Of a stretch of 64,000 nucleotides of DNA, positions 611 through 55,091 are shown piece by piece. Location: assembly GCF_036884655.1 (NCBI RefSeq), contig NC_088356.1, positions 18,221,001 through 18,285,000 of the forward strand, written 5' to 3'. Each line of letters opens with the position of its first letter. The stretch's first letter is position 1. The stretch is from Musa acuminata AAA Group. Lineage: Eukaryota; Streptophyta; Magnoliopsida; Zingiberales; Musaceae. The notes below the pieces were generated by a model. That model was not told the origin of the DNA and did no database searches. It worked only from the letters and a program-made list of their open reading frames with translations. The position numbers and the translations under genes are program-made.

Positions 611-2164
611 CTACAAAAGAGGATAATTTTTAGGTACCCATTTGATTTTGGGTGCCTCAAAAATTGACCCACTAACTTTGTTATTTATTATTGAATTCTT
701 TATAGTTCCTTTAGGAACCCATATTAATTTTTGTGAACTAATTTTCCTAAATGGGCATTTGTAGGCAATATGTCCGGATTTGCAACAAAAGTTGCATTTC
801 ATATAAGAGGAAACATGTAATGTAGGTCCTTTTATGAAAGTGATAGGATTTTGATGTAATCCTTTTACAAATCCAATTCCATTTCTATTTGCGATGTGAC
901 CCTTGTGTGCAAGGATCATATCTAATCCTTTGCTACCAACCTTAAACTTGTTTAAGGTTTCCTTAAGAAGTAAATTTTCATTTTTTATTGCTTCTAAGTG
1001 CTCACACTTAGAGCATGGAGGAGTTTGAAGACTATCAAACTTATCTTGTAGCAAAGCATTCTCTTTCTTTAAGATACTTAACTTCTTGCTAACAGCTCTA
1101 CATTCATCAAATAATTCATGAAAAGCGATAGATAGTTCTTCAAAAGATAACTCTTCATTAAATAAATCACATACCTCTTCTCCTAACGCCATTAGCGCGT
1201 AATGAGCAACTTGCTCGGTGTTGGACTCCTCTTCTTCGGATGCGCTTAAATCATCCCACGTTGCCTTGAACGCCTTCTTCTTCGATGTTCTCTTTTTGGC
1301 TTGAGGACAATCGTTCTTGTAGTGTCCCGGTTTTTTGCATTCATAGCAAATCACTTGGTCCTTCTTTTCTTCAAATTTGTTTTTAAATTTGTTCTTTCTT
1401 AAGTATTTCTTAAATTTTTGAGTCAAAAGTGCAATGTCATTATCACTGTCCTCATCACTTGATGTTCCTTTCAAGTGGTCTTCTTGTGATTTGAGTGCCA
1501 TATCCTTCCTGTTCTTTGGAAGGGGGTTCTCGAGCTCGTCATGAGCTTGACATGTCATTTCGTAGGTCATTAGAGACCCAATGAGTTCTTCAAGAGGGAA
1601 TGCTTTAAGGTCTTTGGCCTCTTGAATGGCCGTAACTTTTGGATCCCAACTTTTAGGGAGGGATCTTAAGATTTTAGTTACTAGTTCAAAGTTAGTAAAA
1701 TCTTTACCAAGAGCTTTGAGTCCATTGATGACATCCGTAAACCGGGTGTACATGTCTCCGATGGACTCACTTGGTTTCATTCAGAAAAGTTCGTAAGAGT
1801 GCACAAGGATGTTGATTTTGGACTCTTTCACTCGGCTAGTGCCTTCATGAGTGACCTCAAGAGTTCTCCAAATATCAAAAGTCGAATCACACATTGAAAC
1901 ACGATTAAATTCGTTTTTGTCTAGTGCACAAAACAAGGCATTCATAGCCTTTGCATTTAAAGCAAAAACCTTCTTCTCCGATTCATCCCATTCGCTCATC
2001 GGAAGAGAAGATTTTTGAAATCCATTCTCGACAATAGACCAAAGCTCAAAGTCCATAGAAATGAGGAAGATTCTCATGCGAGTCTTCCAATATGTGTAAT
2101 CCGACCCATTAAACAAAGGTGGTCGTGCAATAGAATGGCCCTCTTGCATGCCGGAGTAAGTCAT
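611..2164 (-). pseudogene. S1 copia gag, one nonsense codon
   Basis: Gag (capsid/nucleocapsid) of a Ty1/copia element. It starts at the ATG at 2164, just downstream of the PBS, and runs in one frame to an amber at 611-613. One in-frame TGA at 1781-1783 breaks it. The other copies have arginine there (ELF-R-MKPSE), so a CGA to TGA change is likely. Seen in order: UBN2-type gag domain, a charged linker, a CCHC knuckle (CYECKKPGHYKNDC), a coiled region, and a second CCHC knuckle (CNFCCKSGHIAYKC) about 45 residues before the amber. Apart from the single nonsense codon the gene looks complete. Confidence 0.88.
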
Positions 2165-6869: not shown

Positions 6870-7373
6870 ATGTGAGCCATACTTTTTGAATAGATATTTA
6901 TATGCAAAATGACTATGTCTATCATAAAAATTATATTTATTTTCAAGGGAACATGTAATATGGGTCCTTTAACAAAAGTGGTTGGCTTTTGTTGAATGTT
7001 ACTCACAAAACTGATTCCTTCTTTTCTATGAACATGACTCTTATTAGCAATACTCATGTTTAAATATTTGCTACTAATTTTAAATTTATCTAATGTTTGT
7101 TGAAAAAATATTTTTTCTTTTTTAAGTGAGTCTAACTCTTCACACTTAGTGCAAGGAGTTAACATGAATTATCATGCTAATTTTTTAATTTTTTAAATTT
7201 ACTAGCAAGAGAAGAATGATCCTTTTTTAACAACTTAATTTTTTTATCAACTAGCATACATTCATCAAATAAATCAAGGAAAGAATCAAGCAATTCATTG
7301 TAAGACAAATGAGATTCGATTGAGTCATCGAAAGCCATTAAGGCGTAGTTCACCACCTTGCCTTTGATGATTT
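6870..7373 (-). pseudogene. C copia gag, 3' half
   Basis: On the minus strand this encodes the C-terminal half of a copia gag: NYALM, NELLDSF, LFDEC, then TKCEELDSLKKE and FVKGPILHV. These are collinear with S1 and S2 gag. The second CCHC knuckle is badly decayed. Stops and a frameshift are present. The other half of the same gene is at 19063-19944. Element N separates them, and C is cut on the left by element E. Confidence 0.78.
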
Positions 7374-8559
7374 TGTTGAATCTCGGATTTTGATGATGAA
7401 ACCGATTGATAGTGTTTATGATTTAATCTGTGTTTTGAGTGATGCAGGATGCGTCGATCGGGGAGAGATAATTAAAGCAAGAAGAATCATGTTGGGCCGG
7501 AGAAACATGTCAGAAGATTGGACGTCACGCCGAAAGATCGATCGACGTATCGATAGAAGGCTTCGGGCCACAATTTCGGGCATCGGGCCAAGAAGAGCAG
7601 ATATTGTACCAATGATATCGGAGTTGCGGAGGTCAACTAGCCGATTGGGCAATAGGCGACAAGAAAGGATGATGCACCGAAGAATTAGATGAAGCATCGA
7701 TGGACCAATGACATACCGAACAACATGATTCATGCTTAGTAATAATTCTCTAGATCGAAGTGTGCTTTACATGTGCAGGATTAACTACGATAGCAAGGCA
7801 TAAAGCAAAATGAAGTCCCAGAGTCAAGAACGCGATTTCGTTGGGAGTTTGAGAGTTCGTCGGAAGTCTGAACGTTTGTCAGAAGTTCTGCCGGAATTGA
7901 CCGAGAAGTCCAGGAGCTTGCCAAAGAAGCTCATCGGAACTCACTAAGAAGATCGTCGTGAAGTCCAGGAGCTTACCGGGAGTCCGTTGGAACATTATCG
8001 AGAGATCGTTGGAAGTTAGGCTCCAAGTTTGAATCAACTTGAGGCTTATAAATATCCCTCTCATCCCTGGTTAAGAAACACAAGACTTGAGAGTAAAAAC
8101 GAAAAGAAACACTGCTGCAATCTTGTGCGAACTCCTCTCCTTCTTCTAAGTGTTAGAATAGTTTGAGAGAGGAGTAACTGGGGGTGTAAGGGTTATCTCC
8201 TAAACCCAGTAAAAAGAGAATCAAGTTGTAAAAGGTGGTTGATCTTCACCTATTGAAGGAAGACCGATAATGGATGCCGGTAGCCTCGACGGAAGAGGAA
8301 TCGGCAGAGTGGATGTAGGTCATGACGACCGAACCACTATAAAATCTAGTTTGCGTTTTGTCTTGAGCAATTAACTTTAACTGCAAACCACTTTACTTGC
8401 TTACTGCTTTCAATACATTTACGAACGTGTTTCAAGTTAAGATCTTTACGAAACGGTTTTCGTCAGAATCGGTTTTAATCGAAATGAAACGATTTGAATC
8501 AGTGATTTTACCGCTACACTAATTCACCCTCCCCTCTTAGTGTTGACTCGTTCCTAATA
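7374..8559 (+). repeat. N 5' LTR, shortened
   Basis: LTR of 1186 bp from TGTTGAATCTCGG to TTCCTAATA (expected CTAACA). Compared with the 3' LTR at 17510-19062 it lacks about 350-370 bp holding the whole GGCGGTGGTACCGCC block. The junction is near 8014, where GATCGTTGGAAGTT runs directly into AGGCTCCAAG. The TATA box (CTTATAAATATCCC near 8048) remains. Confidence 0.83.
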
Positions 8560-8561
8560 GT

Positions 8562-8573
8562 TGGTATCAGAGC
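8562..8573 (+). other. N primer binding site
   Basis: TGGTATCAGAGC, complementary to initiator methionine tRNA, two bases after the LTR end. Confidence 0.88.
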
Positions 8574-8609
8574 CTCATAATTTCTCATTTGGTTTAACAC
8601 CCAAGAGAA

Positions 8610-9551
8610 ATGGCCCTTTTCAGCTTTCAAGAGGGTTACTCTCTCATTCATCCTCCCTTGTTCAATGGGACGAACTACACATATTGTTAAACTCAAATGA
8701 GAGTTTTCCTGCTTTCCTTGGATTTAAATTTATGGAATATTATTGAAAACAGTTTTTGAAGGTTTTCTCTTCCAAGAAACCATTGGAATGATTTGGAGAA
8801 GAAGACATTTTCTTTAAATGCGAAAGCTATGAATGCTTTGTTTTGTGCCTTAAACAAAAATGAATTTAATCATGCTTTTATTTGTGAAACTACGCACGAT
8901 ATTTGGTATACTCTTGAAATCACACATGAAGGCACTAGCAAAGTTAAAGATTCAAAAATCAACATTTTGATGCATGATTTTGAACTATTTCAAATTAAGC
9001 CGAGAGAAACTATTGTTGACATGTACACCCGTTTTATGGATGTCGTCAATGGTTTAAAAGCTCTTGGTAAAATTTTTTCGAATTTTGAACTTGTTAGTAA
9101 AGTTTTACGATCACTTTCTAAAAATTGTAATTCGAAAGTAACGGCTATTCAAGAATTAAAAAATTTGAATAATTTTTTGATCGAATAACTTATCGGGTCT
9201 TTAATGACCTACGAAATGACCAATGTGGTACAAAATAAACTTGAGGACAACCTTCTAAAGAATAGGAAGGATTTTGGACTTAGAACAATTGAAGACCACT
9301 TGAGCATAAGCTCAAGTGATGGTAAATTTGAACTCCTCACTATGAAATTTAAAAAGCTCATGAAACAAAAATTAAAGAACAAAAAGAACGGAACTACTTA
9401 CTATAAACGCAAGAAGAAGTTGCCAAAAGACGAATCGAGCTCCTCCAAAGACAAGGAGAAAGTCAACAAAAGCGAGGTGGCAAACTACATCTTAACGGCT
9501 TTCGATGTTGAGGTAATCAAAATGCCCTTAGTTTACTTTGAAATTACATAA
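8610..9551 (+). pseudogene. N copia gag, C-terminally shortened
   Basis: Gag in one frame from the ATG at 8610 to TAA at 9549-9551, with internal stops: TAA and TGA in the first 55 codons, and TAA at 9186-9188. The UBN2-type core is clear (LEKKTFSLNAKAMNALFCAL, FELVSKVLRSL, IGSLMTYEMT). The CCHC knuckle is gone: where S2 has CYECKKPGH..., this copy has YYKRKKKLPK. The protein would end in VYFEIT, with the sequence leaving homology to S2 at GAGGTAA. The gag of N2 ends the same way, so the short form is a family trait and not a chance truncation. Confidence 0.82.
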
Positions 9552-19062: not shown

Positions 19063-19944
19063 AGTTTGCTCCTCATCTTTAGATATACTTGATTCATCCC
19101 ATATCGCCTTGAATGCTTTCTTCTTCTTTGGTAGCTTCTTCGATTTATAGCAAGTTGTTGTGTCATTTTTAAGTTCGTTTTTAAAATTAGTCTTTTTCAT
19201 GAACTTTTTAAAATTCTTTCTCAAAAGTTCTATGTCATCTTCACTTGAGCTCTTACTCAAGTAGTCTTCTATTGTTTGAATTGCCAAATCCTTCATATTC
19301 TTTGGAAGGTAGTTCTCATGTTCAATACAAGTCATTTTATAGGTTATTAAAGACCCGATAAGTTCTTCAAGTGAAAAATAGTTTAAACCCTTTGTCTCTT
19401 GTATTGCCATCACTTTCAGATCCCAACATTTTGGAAGGGATCTTAGTTGTTTGTTAACAAGTTCAAAATTAGAAAAATATTTACCAAGACTTTTTAGGCC
19501 ATTGATGATATCCTTAAAACAAGTGTACATGCCTCCAATGGTTTCGCTTGGTTTCATACGAAACAATTCAAAATCATGCATCAAAAAATTAACTTCAGAA
19601 TCTTTAACCCTACTTGTGCTTTCGTGGGTGACTTCAAGAGTGTGTCAAATATCATGTGCAGTTTCACAAGTCGAAATATGATTAAACTCATTTTTATCTA
19701 AAGCATAAAATAAAGCATTCATAGATTTCATATTTAAATAAAACGATTTTTTCTCAAAGTCATTCCATTCATTCATAGGTTTATAGGGGGTTTGAAAACC
19801 ACATTCAACGATATTCCCATAAATCAAAGTTCAAATAAAGCAAGAAAAAACTCTCATCCGAGTTTTTCAATAAGTGTAGTCCGTCCCATTGAACATATGA
19901 AAACGAGTGATAGAAAGACCCTCTTGAAAGTCGAAAAAAGTCAT
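19063..19944 (-). pseudogene. C copia gag, 5' half
   Basis: Minus-strand gag from the ATG at 19944 to the N insertion point at 19063. The UBN2-type core is clear (MNALFYALDKNEFNH, FELFRMKPSETIGGMY, SLEELIGSLITYKMT). The CCHC knuckle is reduced to TTTCYKSKKLPKK, missing its second half. Several stops are present, including a Trp codon changed to TAG near the start and one after AHDI. It continues at 6870-7373 across N. Confidence 0.84.
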
Positions 19945-19980
19945 CTCTCTTGGGTGTTAATCCAAATAGAGATAAACGTG

Positions 19981-19992
19981 GCTCTGATACCA
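19981..19992 (-). other. C primer binding site
   Basis: Reverse complement TGGTATCAGAGC, two bases from the LTR end at 19995. Confidence 0.88.
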
Positions 19993-19994
19993 AC

Positions 19995-21301
19995 TGTTAG
20001 GACCAAGTCAGCACTAAGAGGGAGGGGGAGGGGTGAGTAAGTGCTTGCAATAAAATCACATCGGTTTGAAAATTCTCGTTCGATGAAAACCGATCGGAAA
20101 GATGTTAACTTGAAAACACATTCGAAAGCGTAGTGAAAGTAAGAAATTAGTTTGCAATGTGAGAATGAAAAGTAAAATAGAAATACAAACCATATTTATA
20201 GTGGTTCGGTCGTCGTGACCTACATCCACTCTCAATTCCTCTTTACTCGAGGCCATCGATTTCCATTACCGATCTTCTTTCAATGGGCGAAGACCAACTA
20301 CCCTCTTACAACTCTTTCTCATTTTCACAAGTTCAGGAGAGAATATTTACACTTCTCTCTTTTACACTTAGACCTCACTTCTCCCTTTAGAAAAACTACT
20401 AAATACTAGGAAGAGGTGACTCTATACTGAAAGAGATTCATAACTTTTTTCACAATAATTCTTTCACCTTTTTTCAACTCAATTTCATGCTATTCTAATC
20501 AGAAATATCTGGGATATTTATAGACCCCAAATAGATTAAAAAATGGAGCAAAAAAAGATCTCATCTTGGGTTTCCCGGGTCCTGACGGTACCATCGCTTG
20601 TGTTGGGCGGTACTACTGCTTGTAGCACTGACACTGGGTGGTACCACCGCCTAGTCTAGTGGCCCTACCACCTGACAGAGCCTTGGAGACTGGGCTTTGG
20701 TAGTACCACCGCCTGACAGTATTAACTATCGACGATACCACTACCCAATCTGAGCGGTACCACCGCCCACCCTAGGCGATGCCACTACCTAGCATGGCTC
20801 CAAGTAGCCAAGTGGGCTATCTATCTGACCCAACTTAGCCCTAACTTAGGCCCAATAGGCCCCTAATTGAGTTGGCCTAATTCTAACCCAATTACAACTT
20901 AAAACTACTTCGATCTAGATAATTATTAAAAAACATTAATCTCATGTTATTCGGCATGTCATTGGTTCATCGGTGCTTCGTCCGATATTTCGGCGCATCG
21001 TCCTCTTTTGCTGTCTTTTACCTAATCGACATGTTGAGCTTCACAATTCCGATCTCTTTGGCGCAATGTCCACTCTTCTAGGCCCGATGACCGAACTCAT
21101 GGCATGAAGCCTTCTATCGACACGTCGACCAATCCTCCGACTCGAGGTCTAATTTTTTGACGTATTCCACTCTGGCCCAATATTGATTCTTCTTACTTTA
21201 ATTGTCATTTCATGATTGAAACTAGTCCTACATCATTCAAAATACAAATTAGATCATAAACTCTATCAATTGATTTCATCATCAAAATCTGAAATTAAAC
21301 C
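19995..21301 (-). repeat. C 5' LTR
   Basis: About 1.3 kb on the minus strand. The inner end reads CTAACA; the outer end is mutated (expected TGTTGAATCTC, here close to GTTTAATTTCAG). The palindrome block lies at about 20580-20790 and the TATA region near 20515. It is more diverged than the S2 and N2 LTRs, consistent with an older insertion. Confidence 0.8.
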
Positions 21302-35820: not shown

Positions 35821-36597
35821 AAACCGAAATTTTTGGTTTTCTTTATTTTGTTCTTTTTGCAACTTAACAGTTTAGTCCTTGAAATTTTTATATTTACATA
35901 TAGGTCCTCCAATTTACATATAAATCTTTATTAATAAATTTTTAAAAGTGAGGGATATTACAGTTGTACCGCCCCAGTTAGGAGGTAGTACCGCCAGGAC
36001 CCCAAAAATCCAAGAAAAGATACTTTGAGCTCCAAATTCAAACCAGTTTGGGGCCTATATAAACCCCACACTTTCCTGCATAAAAGGGCAACTAAAGGCA
36101 CTGAAAATCCAATCTTACTCTGTGATTTTTAGAGCTCAAAAGTGTTGTAAAGGCTAGAAGTTCTCCTCTCTCTTTTCTTCCAAGTTTTGATCTTTCACGA
36201 GAGGAGAGAAAACTCTGTAAGGGTTGTCTCCTAAGCCCGTCAAAAGGAGTAAAACTATAAAAGGGTAGTTGGCCTTCGCCTATTGAAGGAAGACCTCTAG
36301 TGGACGTCGGTGACCTCATCGGAGGAGGAAGCCAAAAGTGGATGTAGGTCAAGATTGACCGAACCACTCTAAATCTCGGTTTGCATTTACTTTCTGTTCT
36401 CTATCTTAACTACAAACTGCCTCTATAGCTTTACTTTAACTGCACTTCACCTAATCTAAGTTAAAGCAATTTTCGAATCGGCTTTTATACCGAAATCGCT
36501 TTTATCGTACGAACGTCGTTTTAATTCGTCGAAAGTTTTCTGCTGCACTAATTCACCCCCCCCCCCCCCCCCTCTTAGTGCTCTTGATTCTAACAAT

Positions 36598-36609
36598 TGG
36601 TATCAGAAC
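36598..36609 (+). other. N2 primer binding site
   Basis: TGGTATCAGAAC, one change from the usual TGGTATCAGAGC, two bases after the LTR end. Confidence 0.85.
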
Positions 36610-36645
36610 TCGGTATTTCTCATTTTGGATTTACACCCGAGAGAA

Positions 36646-37281
36646 ATGGCTCTTCCTAGCTTTCAAGAGGGCTTATCGGTTGTTCGTCCACCGTTGTTTA
36701 ACGGAATGGACTTCACTTATTAGAAAACTCGAATGAGAGTTTTCTTGATTTCTATGAATTTGGATTTAGGGAATATTGTTGAAAATGATTTTCAACTTCC
36801 CTCTAAACTGATGAACGAATGGTTGGATTTGGAGAAGAAGTATTTTTCTTTAAACACAAAGGCTATGAATGCCTTATTTTGCGCTTTAGACAAAAATGAG
36901 TTCAATTGAATTTCTACGTGCGAAACGGCTTTTGATATTTGGCAAACACTTGAAATCACACACGAGGGAACTAGTAGAGTCAAAGACTCAAAAGTTAACA
37001 TTTTATTGCATGATTTTGAGCTTTTTCGAATGAAACCAAGCAAGACTATAGGCGACATGTACACCCGTTTCACGGATGTCGTCAATAATCTAAAATTTCT
37101 TGGGAAATCTTTTTCGAATTTTGATCTCGTAAGCAAGATCTTAAGATCCCTTCCAAAAAGGTGGGATCCTAAAATAACCGCAATACAAGAGATAAAAAAT
37201 TTAAATGATTTTCCATTAGAAGAATTAATCGGGTCATTAATGACCTATGAAATGACACTTTTGGAACATTTTGAACCCGAT
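36646..37281 (+). pseudogene. N2 copia gag, first part
   Basis: Gag from the ATG at 36646 in one frame to the S2 insertion at 37281. The UBN2-type core is kept (MNALFCALDKNEFN, FELFRMKPSKTIGDMYTRF, PLEELIGSLMTYEMT). Two nonsense codons are seen: TAG in place of the conserved Trp before KTRMR near 36721, and TGA after KNEFN near 36907. It continues at 46879 after S2. Confidence 0.85.
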
Positions 37282-39314
37282 TGTTGAATCTCGGATTTTG
37301 ATGATGAAGTCAATTGTCATTTGTTGTCTAATCTATGTGTTGAGATAAGTGTGCAGGATTAACTACGATGAAAGTTAGACAAGCAGCAGGAGTTGCGCCG
37401 GAGTCAAGTTCATGATCACGTTGGAAGTTCGAGAGTTCGACGGAAGTTCGGACGGTCGTCGGAGGTTCTGCGAGAATAGATCCGAGAAGTCCAGAAGCTT
37501 GCCAAGCGAAGCTCGTCGGAACTTGCCAAGTGGATCGTCGCAAAGTCCAGGAGTTTGCCGGAAGTCCGCAGGAGCATCACCGAGGGTTCATCGGATGATC
37601 GACGGAAGTTCGCCGGAAACTCGCCGGAAGGAGCGATTGACGCACCGAAGCAAAGCTGCAGAAATTGTCTTAGATCTAATCGTAGTTAGCACGTTGATTA
37701 AGTTGGAAAATGGGAGGTGATCCCATTAGCTTAATCTTGGGGCAATTGGACCCCTGAAAGACTGAAATTGGGCCGAATGGAGCTAACCATTCGGACCCTG
37801 ATTGCACCAGGAGGTGCAACCGCCTAGGCCAGGAGGTGGCACCACCTGGGCTAAGCCTCCCAGCGAGACTGGGCAGTGCAACCTCCCCAGCTGGGAGGTG
37901 GCACCGCTTGAGCTCAGTCTTCGAGCAAGACTGGGCGGTGCAACCTCCCTGACAGAGAGGTGGCACCGCCTGAGCTCAGTCTTCGAGCAAGACTAGGCGG
38001 TGCAACCTCCATGACAGAGAGGTGGCACCGCCTGAGCTCAGTCTTCGAGCTCTACCAGGCGGTGCAACCTCTCCAGTCAAGAGGTGCAACCGCCTGATCC
38101 CAGAATTCCGGGATTTGATTGTTTTGAGCTCCAAATTTGAATTGGGTTGGGGCCTATAAATATCCAACCCATTCAGCACTGAAAAGATACAGACCTACAC
38201 CGAAATCTTGATCTTTTCTGTGATTCTAAGAGCTCAAAAGTGTTGTAAAGCCTTTAAGTCTCCTCCTTCTGTTCTTCAAGTTTTTGAGTTGTAAAGTGAG
38301 GAGAGAAAGGTCTGTAAAGGTTGTCTCCTGAGCCTGTCAAAAGGAGAGAAACTGTAAAAGGGCAGTTGGCCTTCGCCTATTGAAGGAAGGCCTCTAGTTG
38401 ACGTCGGTGACCTCGTCGGTGGAGGAAGCCAAAAGTGGAGTAGGTCAAGACTGACCGAACCACTCTAAATCTCTGGTTTGCATTTATTTTGAACACCTTA
38501 TCATTACTGCAAATCTCCTTCATAACTACTACTCTCTGCGCTTTTACGAACAAGTTCTAAGTGCTGTTCTTTCCGAATCTGCATTCAGACGCAAATCGGT
38601 GTTTTCGTACATTACAGTTTACGTTTACGTTTTAACTCTGCAAAACTGTCTTCTACGCCTTCACGAACAAGTTTTTAAGTGCTGATCTGTCCGAATCTAC
38701 TTTCAGACGTAAACCAGCGTTTTCGTACGATATTTACATCGTAGTTTACGTTTACGCCTTGATTCTGCAAAACTGTCTTCTGCGCTTTTATGAGTTTCTA
38801 AAGTTCAGATCCCTTTGAAACTGCGTCTAGACGTAAAATTGCGTTTAGACGTAAAACTGCTCAAACTGTGTAAAGACGTTTTAGACGTAATCTGAGTTTA
38901 GACGTAAATCTGCGTTTAGACGTAAAACTGCGTTTAGACGTAAATCTGCGTTTAGACGTAAAACTGCGTTTAGACGTAAATCTGAGTTTAGACGTAAATC
39001 TGCGTTTAGACGTAAAACTGCGTTTAGACGTAAATATGCGTTTAGACGTAAAACTGCATTTAGACGTAAATCTGCGTTTAGACGTAAACTGCGCTTAGAC
39101 GCAATCTGCGCTTAGACGCAAACTGTGTTTAGACGCAAACTGCGCTTAGACGCAATCTACGCTTAGACGCAAACTGCACTTAGATACAAACTGAGAATTA
39201 GCTTTTTCATCATAATAGTTTTTATTGAACGAACGCAGCTTTTCGTTTTAATCGCTGTAAGATTTCCGTTGCACTAATTCACCCCCCCCCCTCTTAGTGC
39301 TCTCGATCCTAACA
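37282..39314 (+). repeat. S2 5' LTR
   Basis: 2033 bp, TGTTGAATCTCGG to CGATCCTAACA. U3 is CpG-rich with GTTCGCCGGAA words. The palindrome block is at 37800-38095 (GGCGGTGCAACCTCC / GAGGTGGCACCGCC units spaced by CTCAGTCTTCGAG). TATA box CCTATAAATATCC near 38152. A GTTTAGACGTAAA minisatellite fills about 38820-39195, after the conserved GCCTATTGAAGG word. A C-tract lies near the end. Confidence 0.93.
38820..39195 (+). repeat. Minisatellite in S2 5' LTR (GCGTTTAGACGTAAANCT)
   Basis: About twenty units of about 18 bp. Units alternate AAACTGC and AATCTGC endings, giving a partial 36-bp higher-order period. The last units change to GCGCTTAGACGCAATCT. The array lies downstream of the TATA box, so it would be in the transcript. 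Confidence 0.9.
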
Positions 39315-39328: not shown

Positions 39329-39365
39329 AAGGTTAACTCTCTAACGGATTAAAACCCAAAGAGAA

Positions 39366-40948
39366 ATGGCATACGCCGGAAACCAAGAGGGGCATTCTAT
39401 TACGCGTCCACCCATGTTCAGTGGGACGGACTACACCTATTGGAAGACCCGAATGAGGATCTTTCTTATTTCTATGGATTTTGAACTGTGGAATCTTGTC
39501 GAAAACGGATTTTCGAAGTCTTCTCTTCCAATGATCGATTGGAATGATTTGGAGAAGAAGGCTTTCGCTCTTAATGCAAAGGCTATGAATGCCTTATTTT
39601 GTGCACTTGATAAAAACGAGTTTAACCGTGTTTCAACTTGTGAAACTGCATTTGATATTTGGCACACACTCGAAGTGACCCATGAGGGCACAAGTAGAGT
39701 AAAAGAGTCAAAAATCAATTTGCTGTTACATTCTTTCGAACTTTTTCGGATGAAACCGAGTGAAACCATTGGCGACATGTTTACCCGTTTCACGGATGTC
39801 GTCAACGGTCTAAAAGGACTCGGAAAGAGCTTTTCGGATTTTGAGCTTGTTAATAAGATACTAAGATCCCTTCCTAAGAGTTGGGATCCTAAAGTCACTG
39901 CTATTCAAGAGGCAAAAGATCTGCGAAATTTCCCTCTTGAAGAACTAATCGGGTCATTAATGACCTACGAAATGACTTGTAAAGCTCATGAAGAGCAAGA
40001 AGACATCCTTCCAAAGAACAGGAAGGATATGGCACTCAAAACTTCTGAATGCCACTTGAGAGAAAAATCAAGTGATGAGGACTGTGATGATGACTTGCAC
40101 TTCTAACAAGAAAGTTTAAAAAGTTCTTTAAAAGAAACAAGTTTAAAAATGATGCAAAAAATAAACTTGAACCCAAGAAGGACCAAGTAATCTGCTATGA
40201 ATGCAAAAAGCCGGGACACTACAAGAGTGATTGTCCCCAAGTCAAGAAGAGAACATCAAAGAAAAAAGCGCTTCAAGCAACATGGGATGACTCAAGCGCA
40301 TCCGAAGAAGAGGAGTCCAACACCGAGCAAGTTGCTCATTACGCCTTAATGGCCATCGAAGATGAGGTAACAAATTCAATAGATGCAGATTTATCTTTCA
40401 ATGAATTATTAAATGCTTTCCATGAATTGTTTGATGAATGCAAAAATATCAGTAGAAAATACAAATTGCTGAAAAAGGTGCATGATAGTCTTACTTGTGA
40501 GTTTGACAAGTTAAAAGTTGAACATCATGATAGTTTACATTCATGTATCAAATGTCATGATTTAGAAACTTTCCAAAAAGAAAACCTGCTACTCAAGGAC
40601 ACCTTGAAGAAATTCGAGGTTGGTAGCAAGTCATTGAACATGATCCTTGCAAACAAGGGTCACGTTCCTAAAAGAAGTGGAATTAGATTCGTGAGAAGTC
40701 CTCACCAAAATCCAACCACCTTCATAAAAGGCTCCATCTTACATGTTCAACACCAAACCAAGTGCAACTTTTGTTGCAAATCTGGACACAAGACACATTG
40801 TTGTCCATTCAAGAAAATAAGTCCAAACAAATTGATTTGGGTTCCTAAAGGAACCATGAAAAATTCTATGCAACTTGATAAGAAATGTAGATCTATTTGT
40901 GAGGCACCCAAAAGCAAATGGGTACCTAAACATCATCCTTTCTTGTAG
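39366..40948 (+). pseudogene. S2 copia gag, one 1-bp deletion
   Basis: Starts at the ATG at 39366 (MAYAGNQEGHSI), 38 bp after the PBS. The first 246 codons are open. A single missing base near 40097, in an otherwise conserved DDL-T-LL stretch, shifts the frame and gives TAA at 40104-40106. The shifted frame then stays open to the amber at 40946-40948. Domains: UBN2-type gag (about residues 10-210), charged linker, CCHC knuckle (CYECKKPGHYKSDC, about 40194-40235), a helical region, and a second CCHC (CNFCCKSGHKTHCC, about 40760-40801). S1 and S3 do not share the deletion, so it is private to this copy. Confidence 0.9.
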
Positions 40949-43900
40949 AAAACTAAACCATCGCAAGCTAGGAGCAAGAGATGGTACCTTGATAGTGGAT
41001 GCTCAAGGCATATGACCGGAGATCCATCTCAATTCTCTAAGCTCACTAGCATAGACGAAGGCTATGTCACCTTCGGAGACAACAACAAGGGTAAAATCAT
41101 TGGCAAAGGAACCATAGGTAACAAATCCAACCTCTTTATTGAAGATGTTCTGTTAGTTGATGGTTTAAAACATAACCTCTTGAGTATTAGTCAATTATGT
41201 GATAAAGGATATACTGTCAAATTCGAATCTAATGCTTGCATCATTGAAAAACCACATAAAAATATGTCTATGATTGCATTAAAACAAAATAACGTATACA
41301 CTATTGACATCAATGACTTATGTGATGAAATATGTTTTGCGGTTATGAATGAGGATGCTTGGCTATGGCATAGAAGATTAGGTCATGCTAGCATGAAACT
41401 AATCACTCAAGTATCATCTAGAGAACTTGTAAGAGGAATTCCTCATATCAAGTTCATCAAAGATAATGTATGCGATGCTTGCCAATTAGGTAAACAAATT
41501 AAGGGTAGTTTCAAAGCTAAGAATCAAATAAGCACCTCTAGGCCCTTACAATTGATCCATATGGACTTGTTCGGACCAATCTCTACATCGAGTCTAGGAG
41601 GTAGCAAATACGCATTTGTCATTGTTGATGACTATAGCAGATATACATGGACCTACTTCTTAAAACAGAAAAATGAATGCTTTAGATATTTTACCAAGTT
41701 TTGTAAACTTGTTCAAAATGAGAAGGGATCTATGATTTCGTCAATTAGAAGTGATCATGGTGGAGAATTTCAAAACCATGATTTCCAAGAATTCTGTGAA
41801 CTCAATGGATACAACCATAATTTCTCTACTCCAAGAAATCCTCAACAAAATGGGGTAGTAGAAAGAAAAAATCGAAATCTACAAGAAATGGCAAGAACCA
41901 TGTTGAATGAACATAGCCTACCCAAATATTTTTGGGCCGAAGCTGTAAACACTGCATGCTATATTTTGAATAGAGTTCTAGTAAGACCCTTACTCACCAA
42001 AACTCCTTATTAGTTATGGAATAACAAAAAACCCAATTTCTCATATTTTAAAGTCTTTGGGTGTAAGTGCTTTATCTTGAATGAAAAGGATAACTTAGAA
42101 AAATTCGATGCTAAATCTGATGAAGGAATCTTTCTTGGTTATTCTTCGGTTTCTAAAGCTTTTCGTATTTTCAATAAAAGAACTTTAATTATTGAAGAAT
42201 CCATCCATGTTGTTTTCAATGAGATTTCCGAAATTAAGAAAAATGATCTTGATGACGATGTTAACTTTGATTCTTTGAATTTAAACGAAACCCCGTCTCC
42301 AACTAGCAACTTGGATGCATCCACTTCCTTACCCAAGGATTGGAAGTATGTAGATGCTCATCCTAAGGAGCTAATCTTAGGAGACACGTCAAAGGGGGTT
42401 CAAACACGATCTTCTCTTAAAACTTTTTGTGCAAATGCCGCCTTTCTCTCCCAAATTGAACCCAAATGCGTTGACGAAGCCATGAAAGATGATTCATGGA
42501 TTATCGCAATGCAAGATGAATTGAATCAATTTGAGAGAAATGAGGTGTGGACGCTTGTTCCTAGGCCAAATGACCATTTAGTTATTGGTACTAAATGGGT
42601 CTTTAGAAACAAGCAAGATGAAAATAGTATCGTGGTTAGAAACAAGGCTAGATTAGTGGCCAAAGGTTTCAACCAAGAAGAAGGTATCGATTACGAAGAA
42701 ACCTTCGCACCTGTGGCTCGATTGGAAGCCATAAGGATGCTCCTTGCCTACGCTAGTTGTAATAATTTTAAGTTATTTCAAATGGATGTTAAAAGCGCTT
42801 TTCTAAATGGCTTTATTTCCGAAGAAGTCTATGTTGAACAACCTCCTGGATTTGAAAATAATAGTCTCCCTAATCATGTGTTTAGATTAACTAAAGCTCT
42901 CTATGGTTTAAAACAAGCTCCAAGGGCTTGGTATGAGAGACTTAGTTCTTTTCTCATTGAAAATAATTTCATAAAAGGCAAGGTTGATACTACATTATTC
43001 ATCAAGAATTTTAAAAATAATTTTCTCATTGTTCAAATTTATGTTGATGATATTATCTTTGGTTCTACGAATGAATCTCTCTGTGAATCTTTTGCTAAAA
43101 CTCTGAGTCTTGAATTCGAAATGAGTTTAATGGGAGAGTTAACATTCTTCTTAGGTTTACAAATCAAACAACTAAGCAATGGCATCTTTATTAGTCAAAC
43201 TAAATATGCCATGAATCTACTCAAGAAGTTTAATATGGAGAACTCAAAAGCCATTAACACTCCTATGAGCACCTCCACTAAATTAGAAATTGATGAAAGT
43301 GGAGAAAGCTTTGATCAAAAAACTTATAGGGGTATGATAGGAAGTTTACTTTACCTCACTGCAATAAGACCAGACATCATGTTCAGTGTAGGACTTTGTG
43401 CTAGATTTCAATCAAACCCTAAGATATCTCATCTCAAAGCAGTTAAAAGAATACTCAGATACCTTAATGGTACCACAAATCTAGGATTATGGTACCCAAA
43501 ATCAGAGAATCTTGAGTTAATTGCTTATGCTGATGCGGACTTTGCTGGTTGTAGATTAGATAGAAAAAGCACATCAGGAACATGTCAATTTTTAGGACAT
43601 GCTCTTGTTTCCTGGTCATCTAAGAAACAAAGCTCGGTTGCTCTATCAACAACCGAAGCTGAATATATTGCAGCAAGTGCATGCTGTGCACAAGTTGTAT
43701 GGATGAAAAACACTTTAGAAGATTACAAAATTAATCTTAAAGATATTCCCATTAAATGTGATAACACGAGTGCAATATGCTTAACAAAGAATCCTATACA
43801 ACACTCAAGAACAAAACATATTGATATCAGACATCACTTTATACGAGATCATGTTGCGAATCATGATATAATCATAGAGTTCATTGATACTAAACATCAA

Positions 43901-43990
43901 CTAGCTGATATCTTTACAAAACCTTTAAGTGAAGAACAATTTGATTTCATTCGAAGAGAATTAGGAATGTTGATGTGTCCGAATAGATAA
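40949..43990 (+). pseudogene. S2 copia pol: protease, integrase, RT, RNase H; one nonsense codon
   Basis: Same frame as the 3' part of gag, directly after the amber. In order: protease (WYLDSGCSRHM), GAG_pre-integrase with HHCC (HRRLGHA, CDACQLGK), integrase core with the DDE set (MDLFGP, SDHGGEF, QQNGVVERKNR), RVT_2 reverse transcriptase ([12 protein letters not shown], catalytic YVDD near 43040), and RNase H ([23 protein letters not shown]). One TAG at 42011-42013 replaces a Glu codon (TPY-E-LW in S3). Otherwise open to TAA at 43988-43990. No env-like gene follows. Motifs fit the SIRE/Maximus lineage. Confidence 0.93.
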
Positions 43991-44844
43991 ATTTGTTAAA
44001 ATTATTTTTCGGACTTTATTAAATGATCAAATCACTTGATTGCCATGTTTCCATGATTATATGTGAAAATCTGAAACAAAATCTTATCCGAATGCATCTT
44101 ATTTATTCGAATGCTATACACCAGATTTTCTCGTACACCTTCATGAAAAATAAGTTTCTGAAATAAATTTGATGAAGTGATTCATGTGTATGTATTCCAT
44201 CCTGCAAAATCTTTACATAGACAATGGATTATAACAAAAAGGGGAAGAAGTATTTAAAATCTTCTATGTAAAATTCCTCTATAAGCTTGCTATTATTATT
44301 TTCCTGGTATCATAATTACTATGCTTTTTGTTGATGACAAAGGGGGAGATATATGAATTGATAAACACTGCCATGATTAGAAATACTATGAGTGATGCTA
44401 TAAACACACTGCTATGATTATGCCATCCTTGCATCACCAAGAGATATATGAACATGTGCTAAAGTTTGCATTATGCCTTGAGTTGATATCTTATCATGTG
44501 AAGAAAATGCAAAACTTGCTAGAATATTTCAAATGTGTGCATCATGTAATAGTGCTTCACAGCTTTATATGATAATGTTCAAACTACATGATGAATAGTT
44601 ACAAACACAATCATACAAACTTGATGATGTATGTCAAGCCTTGACATCATCCTTGAAGAGATACATCATGATGAGTATCATGATGGGAGTATTGATAAGT
44701 TTAACTGATCTAACTTATCAATACGTCACTTGAATTCTTAGGTCTTGAATTCAAGGTTGACTTATCTCAACTATGGCATATAGACAGGGGGAGTTAAGGA
44801 TAACTCCATTATCAATTGATTGTCATCATCAAAAAGGGGGAGAT
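43991..44844 (+). mobile_element. S2 3' noncoding region with repeated purine tracts
   Basis: No gene. Contains AAAAAGGGGAAGAAG (44237), TTTTTGTTGATGACAAAGGG (44328), AGACAGGGGGAGTTAAGG (44782) and the PPT AAAAAGGGGGAGAT (44831-44844). Multiple purine tracts before the 3' LTR are a known Sirevirus trait. Only one remnant of the GCTAGC repeat unit (near 44515) is visible, unlike N, N2 and E. Confidence 0.8.
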
Positions 44845-46878
44845 TGTTGAATCTCGGATTTTGATGATGAAGTCAATTGTCATTTGTTGTCTAATCTATG
44901 TGTTGAGATAAGTGTGCAGGATTAACTACGATGAAAGTTAGACAAGCAGCAGGAGTTGCGCCGGAGTCAAGTTCATGATCACGTTGGAAGTTCGAGAGTT
45001 CGACGGAAGTTCGGACGGTCGTCGGAGGTTCTGCGAGAACAGATCCGAGAAGTCCAGAAGCTTGCCAAGCGAAGCTCGTCGGAACTTGCCAAGTGGATCG
45101 TCGCAAAGTCCAGGAGTTTGCCGGAAGTTCGCAGGAGCATCACCGAGGGTTCATCGGATGATCGACGGAAGTTCGCCGGAAACTCGCCGGAAGGAGCGAT
45201 TGACGCACCGAAGCAAAGCTGCAGAAATTGTCTTAGATCTAATCGTAGTTAGCACGTTGATTAAGTTGGAAAATGGGAGGTGATCCCATTAGCTTAATCT
45301 TGGAGCAATTGGGCCCCTGAAAGACTGAAATTGGGCCGAATGGAGCTAACCATTCGGACCCTGATTGCACCAGGAGGTGCAACCGCCTAGGCCAGGAGGT
45401 GGCACCGCCTGGGCTAAGCCTCCCAGCGAGACTGGGCGGTGCAACCTCCCCAGCCGGGAGGTGGCACCGCCTGAGCTCAGTCTTCGAGCAAGACTGGGCG
45501 GTGCAACCTCCCTGACAGAGAGGTGGCACCGCCTGAGCTCAGTCTTCGAGCAAGACTGGGCGGTGCAACCTCCCTGATAGAGAGGTGGCACCGCCTGAGC
45601 TCAGTCTTCGAGCTCTGCCAGGCGGTGCAACCTCTCCAGTCAAGAGGTGCAACCGCCTGATCCCGGAATTCCGGGATTTGATCGTTTTGAGCTCCAAATT
45701 TGAATTGGGTTGGGGCCTATAAATACCCCACCCATTCAGCACTGAAAAGATACAGACCTACACCGAAATCTTGATCTTTTCTGTGATTCTAAGAGCTCAA
45801 AAGTGTTGTAAAGCCTTTAAGTCTCCTCCTTCTGTTTTTCAAGTTTTTGAGTTGTAAAGTGAGGAGAGAAAGGTCTGTAAAGGTTGTCTCCTGAGCCTGT
45901 CAAAAGGAGAGAAACTATAAAAGGGCAGTTGGCCTTCGCCTATTGAAGGAAGGCCTCTAGTTGACGTCGGTGACCTCGTCGGTGGAGGAAGCCAAAAGTG
46001 GAGTAGGTCAAGACTGACCGAACCACTCTAAATATCTGGTTTGCGTTTATTTTGAGCACCTTATCATTACTGCAAATCTCCTTCATAACTACTGCTCTCT
46101 GCGCTTTTACGAACAAGTTCTAAGTGCTGTTCTTTCCGAATCTGCATTCAGACGCAAATCGGTGTTTTCATACATTACAGTTTACGTTTACGTTTTAACT
46201 CTGCAAAACTGTCTTCTACGCCTTCACGAACAAGTTTTTAAGTGCTGATCTGTCCGAATCTGCTTTCAGACGTAAACCAGCGTTTTCGTACGATATTTAC
46301 ATCGCAGTTTACGTTTACGCCTTGATTCTGCAAAACTGTCTTCTGCGCTTTTATGAGTTTCTAAAGTTCAGATCCCTTTGAAACTGCGTCTAGACGTAAA
46401 ATTGCGTTTAGACGTAAAACTGCTCAAACTGTGTAAAGACGTTTTAGACGTAAACTGAGTTTAGACATAAATCTACGTTTAGACGTAAAACTACGTTTAG
46501 ACGTAAATCTGCGTTTAGACGTAAAACTGCGTTTAGACATAAATCTGAGTTTAGACGTAAATCTGCGTTTAGACGTAAAACTGCGTTTAGACGTAAATAT
46601 GCGTTTAGACGTAAAACTGCGTTTAGATGTAAATCTGCGTTTAGACGTAAGCTGCGCTTAGACGCAATCTGCGCTTAGACGCAAACTGTGTTTAGAGGCA
46701 AACTGCGCTTAGACGCAATCTGCGCTTAGACGCAAACTGCACTTAGATACAAACTGAGAATTAGCTTTTTCATCATAATAGTTTTTATTGAACGAACACA
46801 GCTTTTGGTTTTAATCGCTGTAAGATTTCCGCTGCACTAATTCACCCCCCCCCCCTCTTAGTGCTCTCGATCCTAACA
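44845..46878 (+). repeat. S2 3' LTR
   Basis: 2034 bp with the same order of parts as the 5' LTR: palindrome block 45365-45657, TATA CCTATAAATACCCC near 45716, minisatellite 46385-46760, and C-tract end. Substitutions against the 5' LTR are few and mostly at CpG, for example GCGGTG here against GCAGTG there. Confidence 0.93.
46385..46760 (+). repeat. Minisatellite in S2 3' LTR
   Basis: Same GTTTAGACGTAAA array as at 38820-39195, with nearly the same unit order. Variants include GTTTAGACATAAA, GTTTAGATGTAAA and GTTTAGAGGCAAA. The kept register shows that both arrays descend from one reverse-transcribed LTR. Confidence 0.9.
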
Positions 46879-47189
46879 ATGAGCACTTGAACCACCTTCC
46901 AAAGAATAGGAAGGATTTGAAACTCCGGACAAATGAATACCACTTGAGCGATGACTCAAGTGATAAGGACAATGATGAACTTAAACTTCGAACACTAAAT
47001 CTTAATAAATTTATTAAACAAAAATCTAAAATAAATAATGAACTTGAATGGAGGAAGAGGCCAAAGAAGAGGAAGGCAACCAAGGATGAATCAAGAACTT
47101 CGAAAGGTGAAACGACGAATTAGGCTTTGACGGGCTTCGACTACAAGGTAAGTAACTCAACTCTCTTGAATTATTTTGAAATTACTTGA
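46879..47189 (+). pseudogene. N2 copia gag, last part
   Basis: Continues the gag interrupted at 37281: EHLNHLPKNRKDLKLRT, then SSDKDNDELKL and a Lys/Arg-rich stretch. One TAG at 47121-47123 replaces a conserved Tyr (NYAL). The frame ends at TGA 47187-47189 after NYFEIT. No CCHC knuckle is present. It leaves homology with S2 gag at AAGGTAAGT (about 47144-47152), a perfect splice-donor consensus. Confidence 0.8.
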
Positions 47190-53716: not shown

Positions 53717-55091
53717 ATGGCATTTGTCGGCAACTAAGAGGGTCACTCAATTACACATTCGCCCTTATTCAATGGAACGTATTACACATATTGGAAGACT
53801 AGAATGAGGATTTTTCTAATTTATATGAATTTTCATGGAAAATTGTCGAAAATGGTTTTCAAAAGTCTTCTCTTCCAATGAACAATTGGAATGAGTTGGA
53901 CCATTAGAGACATGTACACCCGATTTACGGATGTTGCCAATTGTCTAAAAGGACTTGGTAAAGGTTTCTCGGATTTTGAACTTGTTAATAAAATCTTAAG
54001 ATTCCTTCTAAAGAGTTGTGATCCTAAAGTAACGACCATTCAAGAGGCTAATGATTTAAATAACTTTCCTCTCGAAGAACTAATCGGGTCACTAAAGACC
54101 TATGAGATGACTTGTAATGCTCATGAAGAGCTTGAGAACAACCTTCTAACGAACAAGAAGGATATGACACTAAGAAGTCAAGAAGACCACTTGAAAGAAA
54201 ATTCAAGTGATAAGGACTTTGATGATGACTTGACACTCTTGATAAGAAAGTTTAAAAAATTCATAAAAATGAATAAATTTAAAAATGACACTAAAAATAA
54301 ATTTAAACCCAAGAAAGAATAAGTAATATAATATGAATACAAGAAGCCAGGACATTTCAAGAGCGAATGTCCCCTAGCAAAGAAGAAGCAACCAAAGAAG
54401 AAGAAGACTTTTAAAGCAACATGAGATGACTCAAGTGCATCCGAAGAAGAGGAGCAAACTAACACCAAATAAGTTGCTCACTATGCGCTAATGACTATTG
54501 GAGATGAGGTAAGCAATTCATTAGATGCAAGTTTATCTTTTGATGAATTACTATACGCTTTTCATGATTTATTTGATGAATGTAAATTAGTTAGTAAAAC
54601 ATATAAATTGTTAAAAAAGGAATATGCTTTCTCTTGTTAGTGATTTTGATAGACTAAAAATTGAGCATGATGATAGTTTAGCTCCTTGCACAAAATGTGA
54701 TCAATTAGAAATGCTTAGAAAGGAAAACTTACTACTCAAAGAAACCTTAGAAAAATTTGAGGTTAGTAGCAAGTCCTTGAACACGATCCTTGCCAATAAG
54801 GGTCACATTCATAAAAAAAAAGATGGAATCGGCTTTGTGAGTAACACTCATAAAAATCCAATTATCTTTGTTAAAGGCCCTGTTTTGTATGTTTCACCCC
54901 AAAATATATGTAACTTGTTACAAATTTGGATATGTTGAGTACAAATGTCCATTTAAGAAATATAGTCCACACAAATTGATTTGGGTTCCTAAAGGAACCT
55001 CAAATGACTCGATACAATATGATAAGTTGTATAGATCGATTTTTGAGGCACTCAAGGTCAAATGGGTACCTAAAAATCACCCTTTTTGTAG
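53717..55091 (+). pseudogene. S3 copia gag
   Basis: Begins at the ATG at 53717 with an early TAA (CAA in S2), then a frameshift and a deletion of about 210 bp near 53904 that removes the middle of the UBN2-type domain. Later parts are recognisable (GSLKTYEMT, LLKETLEKFEV, FVKGPVL). First CCHC decayed (YEYKKPGHFKSEC). One base lost just before the amber at 55089-55091 puts that amber out of frame with the last gag stretch. Confidence 0.85.

Follow-up and report, generated by a model that had tools for sequence, protein, structure and literature searches.

In the 64,000-nucleotide (nt) stretch of Musa acuminata AAA Group DNA analysed here (NC_088356.1, positions 18,221,001 to 18,285,000; hereafter the window), three retrotransposon copies, termed S1, S2 and S3, carry a TAG (amber) codon at the boundary between gag and pol. 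S2 is a Sirevirus (SIRE lineage, Ty1/copia). The codon is genuine and ancestral, and very probably it serves as the 3' end of an intron, so that splicing of an alternatively spliced gag intron, and not readthrough, sets the ratio of Gag to Gag-Pol. The removal of exactly this GT-AG stretch is observed in many genomic copies belonging to two families.

The TAG codons at 40946-40948 (plus strand, S2), 611-613 (minus strand, S1) and 55089-55091 (plus strand, S3) were rechecked in the sequence. Both flanking frames, that of the gag C-terminus (second zinc knuckle, WVPK and five codons) and that of the protease, are in register with the codon in S1 and S2. The Gag that ends here contains two zinc knuckles and finishes with ...KWVPK(N/H)xPxL, and the next codon starts the protease frame. 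S3 retains the TAG; its local frame differs after small indels, and the base that was lost falls inside the predicted intron. The agreement among the copies goes far beyond chance. The codon would be the Gag stop and the intron end in S1, the intron end in S3, and in S2 the Gag stop of the unspliced RNA and the last three bases of the intron. S1 and S2 have diverged to a synonymous distance (dS) of about 1.4-1.5. A test for purifying selection on both sides of the codon, as suggested by the first-pass annotation of this sequence, gave ratios of nonsynonymous to synonymous change (dN/dS) of 0.21 for the 187 codons before it and 0.06 for the 201 codons after it, S1 being compared with S2. Therefore, both sides were kept as protein while the stop remained between them.

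Scoring the codon in relatives from the host genome (assembly of 1.53 Gb in 1060 contigs) gave a uniform picture. A Pol protein query, whose matches start downstream of the codon, listed 87 places. Among the 40 fetched, all from the S1 family and with two long-frame copies included deliberately, 37 had TAG, one had TAA, none had a sense codon and two lacked the region. TAG was likewise present in 40/40 copies fetched by DNA similarity from the S1 and S2 families (of 80 listed) and in 20/20 of the S3 family (of 40 listed), the queries for both samples containing the amber site. The Pol frame from stop to stop measures exactly 1012 amino acids in 61 of the 87 listed places and exceeds 1014 in two; the amber thus borders an open pol in most. 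Being common to S1, S2 and S3 and conserved across the host-genome copies, the amber is indeed ancestral, as had been supposed. C-to-T decay of a CAG codon in the three window copies is unlikely, given TAG in 37 of the 38 scorable copies of the protein-query sample. Three details of the earlier account need correction: the gag of S2 also changes frame near 40094-40106, that of S1 is interrupted by a stop immediately upstream of position 1780, and a stop at 42011-42013 breaks S2 pol.

In each window copy, the amber lies in a pyrimidine-rich TTGTAG that is the best-scoring 3' splice site among all AG dinucleotides considered (rank 1 of 150, 145 and 129 for S1, S2 and S3, respectively). The corresponding 5' splice sites occupy homologous positions downstream of the first zinc knuckle, in the sequence ...ALM(A/T)..(E/D)E, and rank 1 of 64, 2 of 69 and 1 of 57 GT dinucleotides in gag. 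When both strands of the whole window are ranked, the donors of S1, S2 and S3 fall into the top 0.1, 1.7 and 0.07%, and the acceptors into the top 0.7, 1.4 and 1.4%; the scoring matrices for these rankings are approximate plant frequencies. In S2 the predicted intron (40367-40948, plus strand) comprises 582 nt with GT...AG ends in phase 0 and contains the C-terminal part of Gag, the second knuckle and the WVPK hairpin. Its donor GAG^GTAACA (40364-40372; ^ marks the exon border), within ...ALMAIEDE^V, is identical in 20/20 fetched S2-family copies, and its 3' splice region TGGGTACCTAAACATCATCCTTTCTTGTAG (40919-40948) includes a pyrimidine tract and a possible branch point CTAA, which was located by eye. 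The S1 intron (611-1174, minus strand, 564 nt) would run from GAG^GTATGT at 1174 to the acceptor TTTTGTAG ending at 611, and the S3 intron (54509-55091, plus strand, 583 nt) from GAG^GTAAGC to TTTTTGTAG. Both ends are in phase 0 in all three copies despite the different lengths. Removal of these 564-583 nt joins about two thirds of Gag in frame with the protease, whereas unspliced Gag stops at the TAG. The donor is conserved as well: where it could be aligned in the protein-query sample (37 copies), it reads GAG^GTATGT in 34, GTATGC in two and GCG^GT in one; it is identical in 40/40 DNA-similarity copies of the S1 and S2 families, whose queries did not extend to it, and AG^GT is retained in 16 of 18 aligned S3-family copies. 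A short intron of 28 or 108 nt at the two WVPK codons was also considered and rejected by inspection, as the donors are weak and the 28-nt version is too short.

Direct evidence for splicing comes from copies that lack the intron. The exact exon-exon junction of the S1 family occurs at 66 genomic places and that of the S2 family at 14, while the reversed control patterns gave 0 in both cases. These counts are lower bounds from exact matches, and the assembly may contain more than one haplotype. Reading of 39 junction loci revealed both exons and the absence of precisely the predicted intron in 38. This set consists of L083 and L084, which have the two long Pol frames and are among the 66, 32 further S1 places (12/12 and 19/20 intron-less in two groups) and five of the 14 S2 places, which all lack exactly 40367-40948. 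In L083 and L084 the join reads GAG^ACAAACC, or ALMALGEE^TNPQARSKRWYLDSGC in protein, with exactly the predicted intron gone, and in 31 of the 32 further S1 places gag exon 1 ends at the donor and exon 2 begins at the acceptor. The lone exception, L165, retains only a short end of exon 1. The S1-junction places are 84% to 99% identical to S1. Two intron-less copies are recent insertions flanked by long terminal repeats (LTRs), which are 99.75% (1217 aligned nt) and 99.5% (1135 aligned nt) identical and adjoined by the 5-bp target duplications TTGCC and AGGCG; the pol sequence of these two copies was fetched in part.

In a tree of exon 1 with 55 rows (55 of 56 pieces, L147 not being anchored and L083 and L084 not being included), intron-less copies stand at several places and 14 changes are needed. 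A tree of 51 rows, omitting L133, L165, L174 and L181, contains 12 changes between the spliced and unspliced state (17.1 in shuffles), at least three of which are forced by well-supported branches, and a single origin of the spliced S1 copies is rejected on it (approximately unbiased test, p 4.6e-60). The intron-less genomic copies are most readily taken for reverse transcripts of spliced RNA. Each of the two families would then have undergone splicing at least once, and probably many times.

Plant Gag and Pol relatives point in the same direction. A WVPK-like motif occurs in 62 Gag relatives; the protein ends no more than 20 residues beyond the last motif in 54 of them and continues further in eight, so a Gag stop near the boundary is common. 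The donor interval could be anchored in 75 of 348 Gag proteins, 42 of which remained after thinning. In 39 of these 42 the interval contains a V after E, K or Q, compared with 10.1 +/- 2.6 in shuffles; the three without it are P0001, P0089 and P0248. Codons for E and K can share a final AG. D makes up 16% of the residues in the interval, yet it is E, K or Q that V follows, and elsewhere in the same proteins 324 of 926 V are preceded by one of these residues. Upstream of the protease, Pol frames read ...Q^(V/I/E)CL...W(Y/F)LDSGC, with Q before the acceptor border in all 11 that were readable among 51 short frames listed (three of the 11 are near-identical). Since a YAG acceptor would allow both, TTG-TAG in S1 and S2 and a glutamine codon in relatives can be reconciled. 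Thus, plant Gag and Pol relatives seem to keep donor and acceptor as codon constraints.

Gene models in which Gag and protease are fused join after the donor E in 41 of 45 cases, as sorted by eye (Citrus 25, Manihot 4, Rubroshorea 4, Fagus 3, Ulmus 2, Trifolium 1 and 2 further); P0281, P0286, P0314 and P0342 do not. A join of the same appearance is found in models from Vitis and Cephalotus, and Manihot, Citrus, Ulmus and Cephalotus each also yielded uncut relatives within the genus. Models from Hevea, Daucus and Malania apparently use the same acceptor with a different donor. Such gene models are predictions and on their own prove nothing. Two models from Elaeis guineensis (P0039 and P0049) leave gag at the same donor and stop a few residues further on, as if another acceptor had been used.

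A hairpin at the end of gag (40898-40932, plus strand, in S2), with the arms GAGGCACCCA and TGGGTACCT, has a core that is common to the minimum free energy folds of S1, S2 and S3. The fold z scores are -3.30, -0.76 and -1.36 for S1, S2 and S3, respectively. Some 20 nt ahead of the intron end lies the possible branch point CTAA, to which the 3' arm of the hairpin extends. For Sireviruses, a motif of 27 nt with an 11-bp hairpin has been published for the gag/pol boundary, and the hairpin of S1, S2 and S3 may correspond to it.

From these observations we propose a conserved, alternatively spliced gag intron whose donor lies after the first zinc knuckle and an acidic stretch (...LMA..DE^V) and whose acceptor is a YAG just before the protease. 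The unspliced RNA would serve as genome and as Gag mRNA, in which the TAG of the acceptor terminates full-length Gag. The host would splice a fraction of the RNA, by which the C-terminal part of Gag is lost and the capsid part with the first knuckle is fused to protease, integrase and reverse transcriptase. Splice efficiency would then set the ratio of Gag to Gag-Pol, and the hairpin may restrain the acceptor by covering the branch point. Presumably, Gag-Pol is mainly translated from the spliced RNA, the hairpin tunes the acceptor and other Sireviruses generally follow this scheme; unspliced RNA may undergo some readthrough alongside splicing.

In a broader form, we consider it reasonably likely that splicing of a conserved gag intron is the route to Gag-Pol in the whole genus, in monocot as well as eudicot Sireviruses. 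The UAG and the hairpin, a recoding puzzle since 2003, would then be a 3' splice site and a branch-point regulator. The spliced product would lack the Gag C-terminal part, second knuckle included, and intron length modulo 3 alone would determine whether gag and pol look in-frame, shifted by +1 or split.

Several observations weigh against the splicing model or limit it. The bootstrap of the exon-1 tree had not converged, and RNA recombination could spread the intron-less junction among copies, so that the tree does not count splicing events. The claim is therefore limited to at least one event per family. The junction evidence covers the S1 and S2 families. Splicing is read here from DNA copies and from gene models that are perhaps ab initio. 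One other GT in S2 gag outscores the proposed donor, and some copies have a poor donor (L079 with GCG^GT, L116 with GTG^GT and L126 with GAG^AT). In L096, TAA replaces TAG, by which the stop is retained and the acceptor is gone. P0001, a Gag of 521 residues close to S1 and with 104 members, has E-I, the donor valine being replaced by isoleucine; a copy of this type would make Gag yet be unspliceable at the donor site. Finally, the 100 nt downstream of the TAG fold better than shuffles in S1 (z -3.62, compared with -1.56 in S2), which suits readthrough, and a deletion at the shared AG could yield one intron-less copy, but scarcely 80 that have identical borders in both families.

Readthrough, in which a few percent of the ribosomes that reach the TAG insert an amino acid and so make Gag-Pol from unspliced RNA, was the mechanism suggested in the first-pass annotation. 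The position of the TAG in frame between two constrained reading frames, a stop in 38/38 scorable protein-query copies (TAG in 37) and the folded RNA after the S1 TAG would all be expected for it. On the other hand, the codons following the TAG are AAA or ACA, which are not known as a plant readthrough context, and readthrough leaves unexplained why the place reads Q in 11/11 readable relatives. Moreover, the codon sits within a strong 3' splice site, and copies exist from which the intron has been cut out, with gag and pol spliced in frame, so that a decoded stop is not the sole way to Pol. With the exact junction at 80 places, and with the TAG and the preceding approximately 560-580 nt missing from 38 of 39 loci read, amber readthrough is very unlikely to be the Gag-Pol route. 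Splicing that removes the codon had been named both as an alternative and as the observation that would count against readthrough, and it is what the genomic junctions display.

Internal entry of ribosomes, or their bypass, at the conserved hairpin, as suggested in the literature for Sireviruses with pol in the +1 or a separate frame, would account for the hairpin in S1, S2 and S3 and for its reported conservation at the Sirevirus boundary (PMC5009743, PMC2829016, accessible text). However, neither S1 nor S2 has an in-frame ATG ahead of the protease active site, and splicing restores the frame at any intron length and leaves a product that is seen in the genome, which makes this mechanism highly improbable. 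It is scarcely credible that the intron-less copies derive from one old deletion per family, spread by transposition and recombination, with splice sites that are coincidental. The junction does have AG on both sides, and on the tree the copies without the intron form partial clusters (12 changes versus 17.1 in shuffles). Nevertheless, the borders are identical in two families that differ at dS of about 1.4, a single origin in the S1 family is rejected, the borders coincide with the best or second-best donor and the best acceptor, and gene models from other plant species show the same join.

Splice control of Gag and Pol as a kind is already known in other elements. In foamy viruses Pol is produced from spliced RNA; as far as available descriptions go, it is a separate precursor there, whereas here Pol stays fused to most of Gag. 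According to the accessible text of a 2025 review, plant LTR elements are generally without introns, with Ogre and EVADE as notable exceptions and a short Gag RNA in BARE1 (PMC12786077). Ogre likewise has a functional intron (PMC12786077), but it belongs to the Ty3/gypsy superfamily, while the present elements have RVT_2 and copia gag domains and their unspliced form still yields complete Gag. In EVADE of Arabidopsis, BARE of barley and other cases of shGAG splicing, mostly Ty1/copia, alternative splicing also sets Gag versus Gag-Pol (PMC8892269, PMC12786077, PMC7730604, PMC7765848). As described in the accessible parts of these papers, spliced RNA gives Gag alone and unspliced RNA Gag-Pol in these systems; the direction is opposite here, as the spliced form joins Gag to Pol in frame. 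A stop codon also parts gag and pol in gammaretroviruses (UAG readthrough, one frame; PMC4178896) and in Tca2 (UGA; PMC2194720), for which no splice-site role of the stop is claimed in the accessible text. In the present elements the codon leaves with the intron.

The original description of the Sirevirus gag/pol boundary is reportedly that of Gao et al. in 2003. The conserved UAG and hairpin at this boundary are a published puzzle (PMC5009743, PMC2829016): internal entry or bypass has been proposed for Pol (PMC2829016), and a 2016 review counts Pol production among the unresolved puzzles, as far as its accessible text goes (PMC5009743). The published boundary belongs to the same genus by its polypurine tract, primer-binding site (PBS) and LTR marks and also has the conserved gag-end hairpin. 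It differs in being described with a +1 frame and internal entry or bypass, whereas here gag and pol share a frame and the UAG would be a 3' splice site. No report of a Sirevirus intron was found in the literature searched, transcript papers included; subscription papers were mostly outside this search, and a prior report is possible. Within this literature, the use by a Sirevirus, the direction, in which the spliced form makes Gag-Pol, and the answer to the boundary puzzle appear to be new. If true, the hidden intron would settle the puzzle of Sirevirus Pol and explain several gag/pol layouts together. It would also change the counting of intact copies, since gag and pol look separate, and provide the host with an added handle, splice control, on a major group of plant transposons. 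Sireviruses make up about a fifth of the maize genome (PMC9073684, accessible text). Intron-less copies are a built-in record of past transcription and reverse transcription.

The assignment of S2 to the Sireviruses rests on marks defined by Bousios et al., i.e. the polypurine octamer, the PBS, the poly-C stretch and the linker octamers (PMC2829016, accessible text). The 5' LTR (37282-39314, plus strand) and the 3' LTR (44845-46878, plus strand) measure about 2.03 kb each and are 98.1% identical, with rechecked ends. The poly-C tract lies at the LTR end, where the sequence reads CCCCCCCCCC...CCTAACA, followed by ATTGGTATCAGAGC, and the PBS TATCAGAGC comes after the 5' LTR. The octamer AGGGGGAG is present at 44341, 44786 and 44835, the last 10 bp ahead of the 3' LTR and followed by AT and then, at 44845, by TGTTGAATC. 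The order of domains is that of copia elements, and gag is enlarged with a central CCHC knuckle (in P0001 at residues 276-292 by Pfam). P0001 Gag has 521 residues, while means of 660 in Sireviruses and 330 in classic elements are given in PMC2829016 (accessible text). Pfam domains found are copia gag, zinc knuckle, Pol_BBD, gag-pre-integrase, integrase core and RVT_2.

All S2 coding parts lie on the plus strand. The N-terminal open frame of gag extends from 39345 to 40106, where the frame change separates the remainder of gag. Exon 2 (40949-42013) encodes a protease-like domain, gag-pre-integrase and integrase core (PF22936, PF13976, PF00665) and is closed by a stop codon; pol continues at 42014-43990 with an SH3-like domain and reverse transcriptase (PF25597, PF07727). 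A search of viral contigs for relatives found none, and six distant loci from a search of genome contigs were left unused. The closest named proteins are from Musa textilis.

No target duplication of S2 is seen, the 5-bp flanks CCGAT and ATGAG being different. S2 is inserted within another gag copy of the same kind (window positions 36475-37256 and 46895-47018). Together with this copy (36475-37256, plus strand), gag remnants are located at 8508-9321 (plus strand) and 19168-20044 (minus strand); their aligned part stops short of the gag/pol boundary. A 375-nt piece at 6949-7323 (minus strand) matches only the stretch right after the S2 donor. The S2 LTRs hold tandem arrays with units of 62, 18 and 17 nt (37752-39210 and 45315-46773).
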